Assembly (NCBI GenBank): GCA_903822495.1
Contig: CAIJPD010000045.1
Coordinates: 121,580-185,579, forward strand
DNA: 64,000 nucleotides
Reading direction: 5' to 3'
DNA from: an uncultured Chloroflexota bacterium
GTDB taxonomy: Bacteria; Chloroflexota; Limnocylindria; Limnocylindrales; CSP1-4
Of this stretch, positions 55,938 to 62,278 are shown one piece after another. Under the pieces are notes generated by a model, which was not told the DNA's origin, did no database searches, and saw only the letters and a program-made list of their open reading frames with translations. Each line of letters starts with the position of its first letter. Position 1 is the stretch's first letter. A program made the translations under genes and the position numbers.

Positions 55938-56013
55938 GCGCCCGTAGCTCAGCGGATAGAGCGTCAGGTTGCGGACCTGAAGGTCGTGGGTTCGAGTCCC
56001 GCCGGGCGCGCCA
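55938..56013 (+). tRNA. tRNA-Arg(GCG), CCA encoded
   Basis: GCGCCCG/CGGGCGC acceptor; TCAGG-TTGCGGA-CCTGA anticodon arm; GTGGG-TTCGAGT-CCCGC T arm; AGCGGATAGAGC D arm, G73. Confidence 0.93.
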
Positions 56014-57323: not shown

Positions 57324-57337
57324 GTTCCTGGTCGTGT

Positions 57338-57754
57338 CTAGGCCTTGATCCGCATGATCGCCGTCCAGGCCATCAGGCCGGCGACGGCGTGAAGGGCCCA
57401 GCCGGCCCACACGAGGATGTCGGTGTTGAAGTGGCTGACGAGGCCGCGGGCGTCTTCGACCAGGTAGAGCCCCGCGCCAAGGACGATCACCAGCCCAAGC
57501 AGGTACTGGCCCGTGGCGTTGTTCAGGGCGCTGGCGGGCGATCCGGGCCAGAAGCGCCAGGCCAGGATGATCCCCGCCGCCACAAGGGAGACGTAGGGGA
57601 GTCCGATCGAGTCCGTCAGCACGCCTAGGACTGCCCAGTCCGCGACCAGGACCAGCGCAGCCGTCGAGAGGACCGAGGCGGGCGGAGCGGGCGGCGTCGG
57701 CACGGCGCTTGCGGCACCGGCCGGCGCGGCGTTGGGAGCGGGCTGATCGGGCAT
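57338..57754 (-). CDS. Hypothetical membrane protein (four TM)
   Basis: MPDQPAPNAAPAG... preceded by GGAGGT; hydrophobic segments. Confidence 0.6.
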   Translation of the reverse strand: MPDQPAPNAAPAGAASAVPTPPAPPASVLSTAALVLVADWAVLGVLTDSIGLPYVSLVAAGIILAWRFWPGSPASALNNATGQYLLGLVIVLGAGLYLVEDARGLVSHFNTDILVWAGWALHAVAGLMAWTAIMRIKA

Positions 57755-57854
57755 CGCGACCTCCATCCGGTCATGTGGCATTGGGCCGGCAGAGCCGCCC
57801 CATCGGGCCAGCGCGAGCATACGCACCTCGTGCGCTTCCGAGAAGACCCTCCCG

Positions 57855-59036
57855 TCAGCCGAGGCCCACCAGCAGGAGGGGATCGCCCAGCTTGCCGTCA
57901 TAGCGGGGTCGGAAGCGGTCCGGGTTGTACATCTTCGCCACGTCCACGGTCCGCGGGCCCGCCCCGATCGGCGGCAGCTCGGTGTGTGCGTAATTGCCGT
58001 CGCGGATCGCCGTCATCCGCCCCGTGACGCCATCCGCGATGAGGTCCATCGCGACATTCGCAAAGGTGATGGCGACCATCTGGTCCAGGGAGTCGGCTTC
58101 GCCGCTGCGCAGGTCGTAGGTCAGCTCGGAGTGCACCGTGTCGAAGCCCGTCAGGCGCAGGAGGTCGGCGGCCAGCGCCTCCCCGACATTCGCCTTGCGC
58201 CGGTGCCCGAAGGCATCGGCCGCGCCGACTTCCGCGATCTGCCCGTCGATGGGGACCGCGCCCTCGGCAGCAATGACGAACGCATAGCGGCTGGGGTTTG
58301 CCGCGTGGTCGGCGGTGAGGATGGCCGCCAGGTGCTCCAGGTCGTATGGCGCCTCGGGGATCACGCACCGGCCCGACGTGACGTAGGCCGCGTAGAGGGC
58401 GGAGAACCCGGCATCGCGACCAAAGATCCGGAAGACCCCGATCCGCTCATGGCTGCCCAGCGTGGTCCGCTGCCGGGTGATCAGCTCCTTCGCGCGGGTG
58501 ATCGCGGACGAGAACCCGATGCAGTACTCGGTCCCCTGGACGTCGTTGTCCATCGTCTTCGGGATGCCGATCACGGGCACGCCCGCCGCGTTGAGGATGG
58601 TCGCGAAGCTGAGCGTGTCGTCGCCACCGATGGTGACCAGGACGTCCAGGCCCAGTGCCTCGACCTGGTCCACCACGACCGAGGTCAGGTCGTACACGCC
58701 CTCGACGCCGGTGCGCAGGGGCGCCCGGGACGCCGCATCCAGCCAGGCGGGCAACCCGGCCGCCTTCATCCTGGCGGGGTTGGTCCGGGAGGTGTGGAGG
58801 ATGGTCCCGCCGGTTCGGTCGATCGTCCGGGTGTTGATCCGGTCCAGGGTGCGCAGATAGGTTGGGTCCCGTTCCGCGCCGGGCCGGGGGTGGGTGAGGC
58901 CCTGCCAGCCGCGGCGGATGCCGATCACCTCATAGCCCAGGTCGGTGGAGCGATAGACCACGCTCTTGATGACGGAGTTCAGGCCGGGAACGTCGCCGCC
59001 CCCGGTGAGGATGCCGATCCGGCGCGGTCGCTGCAT
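57855..59036 (-). CDS. 6-phosphofructokinase, PPi-dependent-type active site
   Basis: GILTGGGDVPGLNSVI; TIGGDDTLSFA and IPKTMDND (Asp/Lys at the phospho-donor selectivity positions). Confidence 0.92.
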   Translation of the reverse strand: MQRPRRIGILTGGGDVPGLNSVIKSVVYRSTDLGYEVIGIRRGWQGLTHPRPGAERDPTYLRTLDRINTRTIDRTGGTILHTSRTNPARMKAAGLPAWLDAASRAPLRTGVEGVYDLTSVVVDQVEALGLDVLVTIGGDDTLSFATILNAAGVPVIGIPKTMDNDVQGTEYCIGFSSAITRAKELITRQRTTLGSHERIGVFRIFGRDAGFSALYAAYVTSGRCVIPEAPYDLEHLAAILTADHAANPSRYAFVIAAEGAVPIDGQIAEVGAADAFGHRRKANVGEALAADLLRLTGFDTVHSELTYDLRSGEADSLDQMVAITFANVAMDLIADGVTGRMTAIRDGNYAHTELPPIGAGPRTVDVAKMYNPDRFRPRYDGKLGDPLLLVGLG

Positions 59037-59167: not shown

Positions 59168-59593
59168 ATGAACTACGAGTTGTTCATGGGTGAGGCCATC
59201 GCGGAGGCCCGCGCCGCCCTGGCGCACGGCCAGCGTCCGCATGCCGCGGTCGCCGTCGTCGATGACGCGATGGTCGCGCGGGGCCACGACCGGGTCGCCG
59301 AACTGGACGATCCCACGGCCCATGCCGTGATCGTGGCGCTCCGCGAGGCGGCCCGGAAGCTGGGCCGGGAGCGGCTCGGCGACGCAACCATCTTCGCCAC
59401 GGTCGAGCCGTGCGTGATGTGCATCGGGGCGCTGCTCGAGAGCGATGTCGCCGCGCTCGTCTTCGCGGCCCCCAATCGGACCGACGGCGCCGCCGGCTCC
59501 GTCATCCAGCTGGCCGAGCACCCGGACCTCCGCCGCCACCTCAAGGTCGTCAGCGGCATCCGCCGCGACGAGGTCGAGGACCTCCTGGGCTGA
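59168..59593 (+). CDS. TadA-like nucleoside/tRNA deaminase family protein with Glu-to-Val in the HAE motif
   Basis: DPTAHAVIVALREAARKLG...ATVEPCVMCIGALLES; zinc ligands kept, catalytic Glu codon is GTG. Confidence 0.88.
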   Translation: MNYELFMGEAIAEARAALAHGQRPHAAVAVVDDAMVARGHDRVAELDDPTAHAVIVALREAARKLGRERLGDATIFATVEPCVMCIGALLESDVAALVFAAPNRTDGAAGSVIQLAEHPDLRRHLKVVSGIRRDEVEDLLG

Positions 59594-59679: not shown

Positions 59680-59765
59680 GGAGAGGTGTCCGAGTGGTCG
59701 ATGGTGCCGCTCTCGAAAAGCGGTCTGCGCAAGCAGCGTGGGTTCGAATCCCACCCTCTCCGCCA
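59680..59765 (+). tRNA. tRNA-Ser(CGA), CCA encoded
   Basis: GGAGAGG...CCGCT-CTCGAAA-AGCGG...GGTTCGAATC...CCTCTCCGCCA. Confidence 0.96.
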
Positions 59766-59872: not shown

Positions 59873-59960
59873 GGAGAGGTCGCCTAGTGGACTATGGCGC
59901 CGCACTGGAAATGCGGTTCGGGGCAACCCGTCGAGGGTTCGAATCCCTCCCTCTCCGCCA
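59873..59960 (+). tRNA. tRNA-Ser(GGA), CCA encoded
   Basis: GGAGAGG...CCGCA-CTGGAAA-TGCGG...GGTTCGAATCC...CCTCTCCGCCA. Confidence 0.96.
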
Positions 59961-60052: not shown

Positions 60053-60318
60053 GCCGTGCTAGGCGGGGAACTAGCGGTGCCCTGTACCTGCAATCCGCTC
60101 CAGCAGGGCTGAATTCCCTCCCGAGGTCTCCGCTCTCGAACGCTGCCGTCGTGGGTGACGTTGAGGGCCGGGTCCCGCGCAGCGGCGAACCGCGATCCGT
60201 GTCAGGTCCGGAAGGAAGCAGCACTAAGCGACCATCGCCGGGTGCCGCGGAACGGCCTGGCCCGAGCCACGCACGAACGTGGGCACGAGAGTCCCCAGAT
60301 CGACGGAGGGTGCACGGC
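60053..60318 (+). ncRNA. ffs: Signal recognition particle RNA, large (Alu-domain-containing) type
   Basis: GCCGTGCTAGGCGGGGAACTAGCGGTGCCCTGTACCTGCAATCCGCT 5' domain; GTCAGGTCCGGAAGGAAGCAGCAC S-domain apical core; ends pair GCCGTGC/GCACGGC; -10 TACACT at 60041. Confidence 0.95.
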
Positions 60319-60353
60319 ACCTTCCTCCCGCTCGCCGCGCGCGCAGGAGCCAC

Positions 60354-62117
60354 GTGACCTCGACGATTCCGCACCAGGCCATCTACCGTCGCTGGCGGGC
60401 CCAGACCTTCAGCCAGATCGTGGGCCAGGAGGCGGTCGTCGCCACGCTTCGCAACGCCGTCCGGAGCGGCCGCGTCTCCCACGCGATCCTGTTCGTCGGA
60501 CCGCGCGGCACCGGCAAGACCTCCCTCGCCCGGATCCTCGCCAAGGCCCTCAACTGCACCAACCTGCAGGACGGCGATCCGTGCGATGCCTGCCCGGCCT
60601 GCGTCGCGATCCGGGAGGGAACCACCCTCGACGTGATCGAGATTGACGCCGCATCCAACCGCGGCATCAACGAGGTCCGCGAGCTGCGTGACCGGCTGCA
60701 GTACGCGCCGTCGTCGCTCCGTCGCAAGGTGTACATCCTCGACGAGGCGCACCAGATCACGAAGGATGCCTGGAACGCGCTCCTCAAGTCGCTCGAGGAG
60801 CCACCGGACTTCGTCGTGTTCATGTTCGCGTCAACCCACCCACAGGACTTCCCGCCCGCGATCCTGTCGCGGCTGCAGCGCTACGACGTCCGGCGGCTGA
60901 CGACCACGGAGATCGAAGGCAAGCTCGAACGAATCCTGGCCGCCGATGGGCACGCCGCGGAGCCGGGCGCCCTGCGCCTCATCGCCCGCCTGGCCGCCGG
61001 CGGCATGCGCGACGCGGAGTCGATGCTGGACCAGCTGCTCTCATCCACCGCGGGGCGCCTCGACGAGTCGTCGGTTCGTGACCTGCTGGGGCTGGCCGAG
61101 GCCGATGCCATCGAGCGGTTCATCGGCGCGCTGGTGGCCCGGGATCCCGTGTCGGGCATCGCTGTCCTCGACGAGCTCGAGGATCGTGGTCGAGACCTCC
61201 GGACCTTCGTCGACCAGGTGGCCGAAGGGATTCGGTCCGCCCTCGTCGGTGGGCTTGCTGCCGGGGCAGCGCCCGGGCGTCAGGCCGGGCTCATCGCCGC
61301 CGCGCGCGGGCTGTCCGGGATCGATCCATCGAGGGCCGGGATCGGAGGACTCCGCCTCCAGCTCGAGCTGGCCCTCTTCGGTCAGGGCGTCGCCGCCGAC
61401 CCAGGCGCAGACCCGCTGGAGACGCGCCCGGTCATCGAGCGTTCCGGACCCGGCTCGCAGATGGCGGCCCGTCCGGCGGCCCTTGCGGGTCCCGTGTCGG
61501 ACCCGGTGCCGGCGCGCGCGTCCGGTCCGTCGTCCCCGCCGCCCGCACCGGCCACGGACCAGCCCGCGTGGCAATCCCATGCGTCGGCAGCCCCCCCTGG
61601 CGACCTTCCGGGCCGGCCCGCCGCCATGCCCCGCGTCAGTCCGCTCCGCGACGATGCACGGCCATCGCCCGCCGTCGCGTCAACCCACGGTCTGGCCGCG
61701 TTCCCGTCGCCATCGGGCCAGGATGCCCCCCCGGCTCCGACACAGGCCGGCGCACCACGGACCTCGGACCTGGCCCGCCTTCGGGAGCTCTGGCCGCAGA
61801 TCGTCGCCCACATCAGCGCGCATCCCCCGACCCGTCCGCTGATCATCGCGTGCAGGCCCATCTCGGTCGAAGGCAACATCGTGACGCTCGGCTTCCCCGA
61901 GGATCAGGCGTTCCTGAAGGACGTCGCGTTCCGGCGCCGGCCCAACCTGGAGTCCGGCATCGGCCAGTTCCTCGGGCACGAGGTCAACGTCCGGTGTGTC
62001 GCGACCAACCTCGACGCCGTCGCGGTCCAGACAGCCAACTCCGACGCGGCCTTCCTCCTGGAGGAGGCGCGCCGGATCTTCGCCGACGACATCGTGGAGC
62101 CCGGCGAGGTGCGCTGA
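60354..62117 (+). CDS. dnaX: DNA polymerase III subunit gamma/tau
   Basis: YRRWRAQTFSQIVGQEAVVATLRNAV, FVGPRGTGKTSLARILAKALNC, CDACPACVAI, IDEAH-like LDEAHQITKDAWNALLKSLEEPP; GTG start with AGGAG RBS. Confidence 0.95.
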   Translation: MTSTIPHQAIYRRWRAQTFSQIVGQEAVVATLRNAVRSGRVSHAILFVGPRGTGKTSLARILAKALNCTNLQDGDPCDACPACVAIREGTTLDVIEIDAASNRGINEVRELRDRLQYAPSSLRRKVYILDEAHQITKDAWNALLKSLEEPPDFVVFMFASTHPQDFPPAILSRLQRYDVRRLTTTEIEGKLERILAADGHAAEPGALRLIARLAAGGMRDAESMLDQLLSSTAGRLDESSVRDLLGLAEADAIERFIGALVARDPVSGIAVLDELEDRGRDLRTFVDQVAEGIRSALVGGLAAGAAPGRQAGLIAAARGLSGIDPSRAGIGGLRLQLELALFGQGVAADPGADPLETRPVIERSGPGSQMAARPAALAGPVSDPVPARASGPSSPPPAPATDQPAWQSHASAAPPGDLPGRPAAMPRVSPLRDDARPSPAVASTHGLAAFPSPSGQDAPPAPTQAGAPRTSDLARLRELWPQIVAHISAHPPTRPLIIACRPISVEGNIVTLGFPEDQAFLKDVAFRRRPNLESGIGQFLGHEVNVRCVATNLDAVAVQTANSDAAFLLEEARRIFADDIVEPGEVR

Positions 62118-62138
62118 CCGAGTTCTGCACGACGCGGC

Positions 62139-62278
62139 GCCATCCTGCAGACTGGCCGAATGGCCGCGCCATCCCGCAGACTGGCCGAATGGCGGCGCCA
62201 TCCCGCAGACTGGCCGAATGGCGGCGCCATCCCGCAGACTGGCCGAATGGCGGCGCCATCCCGCAGACTGGCGGCGCC
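62139..62278. repeat. 29-bp tandem repeat, 4 full units plus a partial fifth
   Basis: Unit GCCATCCCGCAGACTGGCCGAATGGCGGC at 62139, 62168, 62197, 62226 and partial at 62255. Confidence 0.95.

Follow-up and report, generated by a model that had tools for sequence, protein, structure and literature searches.

Bacteria in which the essentiality of TadA has been tested cannot do without it. In Mollicutes, either a weakened catalytic TadA is kept or its gene is deleted, and both outcomes are linked to a changed tRNA-Arg set (Yokobori 2013, PMC3711424). According to a review, the bacterial ACG anticodon correlates with tadA, and Thermotogae and Spirochaetes have GCG (PMC8007984); its passages on this mention neither Chloroflexota for the GCG trait nor a retained TadA without its catalytic Glu, and a partial survey of the literature yielded no report of Chloroflexota with GCG for ACG in tRNA-Arg or of a retained Glu-less bacterial TadA. 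In ADAT3, the zinc is capped by the penultimate Asp, and ADAT2 E73A is hardly active (PMC8216470).

The gene considered here lies at 59168-59593 of the window, i.e., the whole stretch of 64,000 nucleotides analysed, and carries HAV where TadA has HAE. It resembles bacterial TadA in its fold (TM 0.90), its full-length profile match, its H-C-C zinc triad and its position beside tRNA-Ser and dnaX, but the protein lacks the catalytic Glu, N46, W73, N127-H128 and the FFxxxR helix, and its genome lacks tRNA-Arg(ACG). With ADAT3/Tad3 it shares the Glu to Val change, the kept zinc ligands and a shortened C-terminal helix, whereas ADAT3 needs the catalytic ADAT2 and bears a tRNA-binding domain at its N-terminus; in the present case no partner was found and there is no A34 substrate. 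As in Mollicutes (PMC3711424), the changes of TadA follow the tRNA-Arg set, and a rearranged Arg decoding makes the gene dispensable; unlike in Mollicutes, a Glu-less version is kept clade-wide under purifying selection, in genomes where the tRNA has G34. The GCG anticodon in place of ACG is shared with Thermotogae and Spirochaetes (PMC8007984).

The HAV gene, its locus and its protein

The relevant features of the window are the following.

55938-56013, plus strand: tRNA-Arg with anticodon GCG (55971-55973), replacing ACG, the usual TadA substrate (ARAGORN; Rfam tRNA, 69.9 bits)
59168-59593, plus strand: HAV-type TadA homolog, ATG start, 141 amino acids (Pfam, AlphaFold2, fold comparison)
59321-59323, plus strand: His52, zinc ligand, kept in 80 of 80 orthologs
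59327-59329, plus strand: GTG, Val54, at the site of the TadA catalytic Glu (E. coli E59; alignment)
59411-59422, plus strand: CVMC, including the zinc ligands Cys82 and Cys85, kept in 80 of 80 orthologs
59680-59765, plus strand: tRNA-Ser(CGA), conserved tadA neighbour (ARAGORN, synteny)
59873-59960, plus strand: tRNA-Ser(GGA), conserved tadA neighbour (ARAGORN, synteny)
60279-62117, plus strand: dnaX (DNA polymerase III gamma/tau), conserved tadA neighbour (Pfam, synteny)

The codons cat gcc gtg (59321-59329) encode HAV within the motif DPTAHAVIVALR (residues 48-59 of the protein), and the zinc ligands, H52 and the cysteines of PCVMC (C82, C85), are intact, just as an earlier note on this DNA had read them; the PHAAV and RGHD variants and the absence of a basic C-terminus, also listed there, were all seen on alignment with HAE TadAs. 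That note's view of the gene as a TadA homolog whose active site has become a pseudo-site is likewise borne out by profile, fold and locus and by a Glu site that is never E. The protein matches PF14437 (5e-23) and PF00383 (9.5e-21), scores 112.9 bits with the NCBIfam TadA model, below the 150-bit cut-off of that model, and consists of the deaminase domain only, its 141 residues holding no ADAT3-type N-terminal tRNA-binding domain. Its AlphaFold2 model has the CDA/TadA fold (mean pLDDT 91.4, pTM 0.88); the top PDB matches are TadA (8e2q, 1wwr and 7cph among them, TM 0.90), ADAT3 chains match it with TM 0.83-0.85, and TadA is also ranked first, over the full length, by profile search.

In the protein tree, all HAV sequences group as a single clade (93/92), placed on a long branch whose attachment point to TadA is left unfixed. 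A group of TadA plus HAV is not rejected in topology tests (p-AU 0.48), and neither is a grouping of HAV with two long-branched non-TadA deaminases (support 62/0), which themselves carry HAE. Therefore, orthology to TadA rests on synteny, the full-length profile and the fold. Downstream of the HAV gene follow the two tRNA-Ser genes, CGA before GGA, then dnaX and ybaB; 86 of 90 loci have a tRNA-Ser at most 700 bases from the HAV gene, 35 of 37 have dnaX at most 3.5 kb away, and the HAE TadAs of several other Chloroflexota occupy the same tRNA-Ser/dnaX position. The gene at 59168-59593 is thus a positional ortholog of tadA.

None of its neighbours hints at a role. A tandem array (62134-62272; 29-bp unit, 4.8 copies, 97% matches) is located between dnaX and ybaB. 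A viral origin was discarded, as viral contigs contained no relatives of the protein, the sole PHROG match being a weak one to dCMP deaminase, and so was a defence role, PADLOC returning no match. In the closest relative, a genome of the same genus (G001; L008/L242, contig G001:C6), one junction links window positions 57326 and 59270, deleting pfkA, an ORF on the minus strand (57338-57901) and codons 1-34 of the HAV gene; the junction reflects a true deletion or an assembly error.

Conservation, selection and residue changes

Of the 24 genera sampled in the family, 22 have clear HAV orthologs, the two others being represented by genomes of 54% and 66% completeness; such orthologs also occur in another family of this class (L158-L164). 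Position 54 is V in 74 and I in 6 of 80 GTDB loci, all 80 of which have H52, E80, P81, C82, M84 and C85. Among 95 distinct HAV-type ORFs, from which a guanine-deaminase-like HAE sequence (L188) was left out, the motif is DPTAHAV in 80, DPTAHAI in seven, DPTAHPV in six, and DPTAHAT and DPTTHAV in one each, so that every ORF has V, I or T at the Glu position and none has E. The HAV change is therefore real and clade-wide, extending over two families of the class; the sequencing error that the earlier note had allowed for, with GAG at this codon in related genomes, is excluded by these many independent genomes.

By simple Nei-Gojobori counting on close pairs (distant ones were left out because dS saturates at high G+C, as was the misaligned L008), the median dN/dS of the HAV gene is 0.10 (16 pairs), compared with 0.10 for dnaX (6 pairs), 0.13 for pfkA (9 pairs) and 0.08-0.16 for HAE TadAs (6 pairs). 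These ratios indicate that the gene is under purifying selection as strong as that on its working neighbours dnaX and pfkA. The truncation in G001, the loss throughout family f2 (see below) and a genome of the gene's own family in which no HAV copy was seen (G164) show, on the other hand, that the function of the protein is dispensable.

In comparison with 38 HAE TadAs of the phylum (E. coli numbering), the HAV proteins retain H57, A58, E85, P86, C87, M89, C90, G112 and A113. Gone are E59, N46, W73, N127, H128, F148, F149 and R153, all (nearly) invariant in the HAE set, as well as R98 and D108; the FFxxxR helix has disappeared and the C-terminus is shortened. A different set is newly conserved at at least 85%, comprising MNYEL at the N-terminus, AMVAR, GAAG...QLA and VSG. 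N46, N127-H128 and the FFxxxR helix are residues that we take, from TadA structures, to belong to the recognition of the wobble base and the anticodon loop; along with the catalytic Glu, the tRNA-recognition apparatus has thus been lost. Position 41, which corresponds to N46, is Asp or Glu in about 80% of the HAV sequences and otherwise N, G, H, Q or S; a replacement base is thus not conserved here, and Asp41 was rejected as a substitute.

Anticodon of tRNA-Arg and type of TadA

The tRNA-Arg(GCG), which has U32, sits in the same window, 3.2 kb upstream of the HAV gene; it was missed by the earlier note, and we regard its anticodon as the key to the HAV change. The source assembly (3.6 Mb, 68 contigs, 89.7% complete) has 43 tRNA matches, among which the Arg anticodons are GCG, CCG, TCG, TCT and CCT, with no ACG tRNA-Arg among all 43. 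In 41 relatives, every tRNA-Arg pattern match is GCG.

Among 151 genomes belonging to the class, HAV occurs with GCG in 89 and HAE with ACG in nine, and the combinations of HAV with ACG and of HAE with GCG were each found in none. This tally was entered by hand from strict DNA patterns on incomplete MAGs, so that "none" in it is no proof of absence. A separate TTCG pattern, meant for tRNA-Arg(UCG), also picks up tRNA-Ala(CGC). By family, f1 has 75 genomes with HAV and GCG, eight with HAV and an untyped anticodon, two with GCG and no gene, and four with neither. The gene is absent in all of f2, whose genomes are about 1.1 Mb (11 GCG, five untyped). In f3, HAV is found with GCG in 14 genomes and untyped in three, and two have GCG but no gene. 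Family f4 has nine genomes with HAE and ACG and five with HAE untyped; no gene was seen in 12 others, five with ACG, five untyped and two with GCG. The single genome of f5 has HAE and an untyped anticodon. One genome with GCG (G108, 97% complete) has no TadA by DNA pattern or by protein search and represents an independent TadA loss. An exception is found in f4, where one genome (G201, 89% complete) has tRNA-Arg(ACG) and no TadA match, protein search included; the missing TadA is probably due to incompleteness.

Among 251 Chloroflexota genomes, 166 have no match to the HAV protein in a protein search, and tRNA-Arg is mostly GCG among the matches listed. Outside the class, all 17 genomes with an HAE TadA read in sequence and a readable anticodon have ACG, and the matches read in G045, G051 and G274 (all GCG), as in G074, G091 and G122, are other deaminases. 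Chloroflexota with GCG outside the class are mostly devoid of TadA. The deaminases of G051 (L216) and G045 (L217) belong to a family with the motifs (A/R)HAELNAL and PCxMCLGA, in hosts with tRNA-Arg(GCG). Since the HAV substitution arose once on the tree, the split between HAV and HAE within the class amounts to little more than a single contrast, and independent support comes from the TadA losses elsewhere.

Proposed origin of the HAV protein and alternatives

We consider it quite probable that the HAV protein is a TadA pseudoenzyme that was released by a switch of the tRNA-Arg anticodon, disarmed, kept under selection and repurposed. In this lineage (order Limnocylindrales), tRNA-Arg(ACG) is replaced by tRNA-Arg(GCG). 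A tRNA with G34 covers CGC and CGU, leaving CGA to a separate tRNA-Arg(UCG), so that A34-to-I editing is not needed. Apparently freed of its essential task, TadA lost its proton-shuttling Glu together with its wobble-base and anticodon-loop residues; the switch likely preceded the loss of Glu, because TadA is needed as long as A34 is in use. Judging from these lost residues, the protein would no longer deaminate A34 of tRNA, whose fold, zinc triad and lineage-specific residues are retained under purifying selection. Today it is most likely a zinc-bound, non-deaminating protein, probably dimeric as is TadA, which may bind a small ligand or a partner. Its recruitment in Limnocylindria to a new conserved function other than deamination, for example the binding of a purine, a nucleotide, RNA or a protein through the old active-site pocket and its zinc, seems rather likely.

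The earlier note had left open whether the gene encodes a decaying enzyme, a repurposed protein or a non-catalytic partner, and the second of these fits best. A non-catalytic subunit of ADAT3 type, pairing with a catalytic TadA encoded elsewhere, would explain a Glu to Val change with kept zinc ligands, as in ADAT3 (PMC8216470), and the structural matches to ADAT3 chains, but the genome, at 89.7% completeness, has a single PF00383 match, the HAV gene itself, instead of a second tadA with HAE. Moreover, no sampled HAV genome has an HAE TadA, the HAE matches there being guanine-deaminase-like or RibD-like, the N-terminal tRNA-binding domain is missing, and with G34 in tRNA-Arg there is no target for an ADAT-type complex; this reading is largely refuted and highly improbable. 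That the gene is a relic, decaying since its substrate tRNA vanished, would agree with the truncation in G001, the loss in f2, the apparent loss in G164 and the shortened C-terminus; the persistence of H, PCxMC and DPT-H in 95 distinct ORFs, a dN/dS equal to those of dnaX and pfkA, the newly conserved positions and the occurrence in two families make decay unlikely.

An active enzyme with another proton shuttle, or with a zinc that activates a different reaction, is similarly doubtful. The invariant zinc triad and E80-P81 and the frequent acidic residue at position 41 speak for it, but that residue varies, and Glu is required for deamination in the deaminase superfamily. The near inactivity of ADAT2 E73A points in the same direction (PMC8216470). 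There is, finally, very little probability that the sequence is erroneous or that the gene is no TadA at all and descends from another deaminase family normally without the Glu, a placement which the earlier note had named as one that would speak against TadA. The score below the NCBIfam cut-off and the possible junction with two non-TadA deaminases in the tree would suit such an origin, but these candidate neighbours carry HAE, the tadA-tRNA-Ser-dnaX locus is kept and, among solved structures, the best full-length matches are to TadA.

Under the explanation that we prefer, a TadA disarmed after the anticodon switch, one bacterial class would display the full path from an enzyme with an A34 tRNA, through a disarmed protein with a G34 tRNA, to loss. 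The class would thus allow tests of how bacteria dismantle an essential tRNA modification and of the fate of the orphaned enzyme, and would provide a bacterial counterpart, lacking a partner, to the substitution seen in ADAT3. Annotation pipelines likely label this gene as tRNA adenosine deaminase, although its hosts should have no inosine 34.
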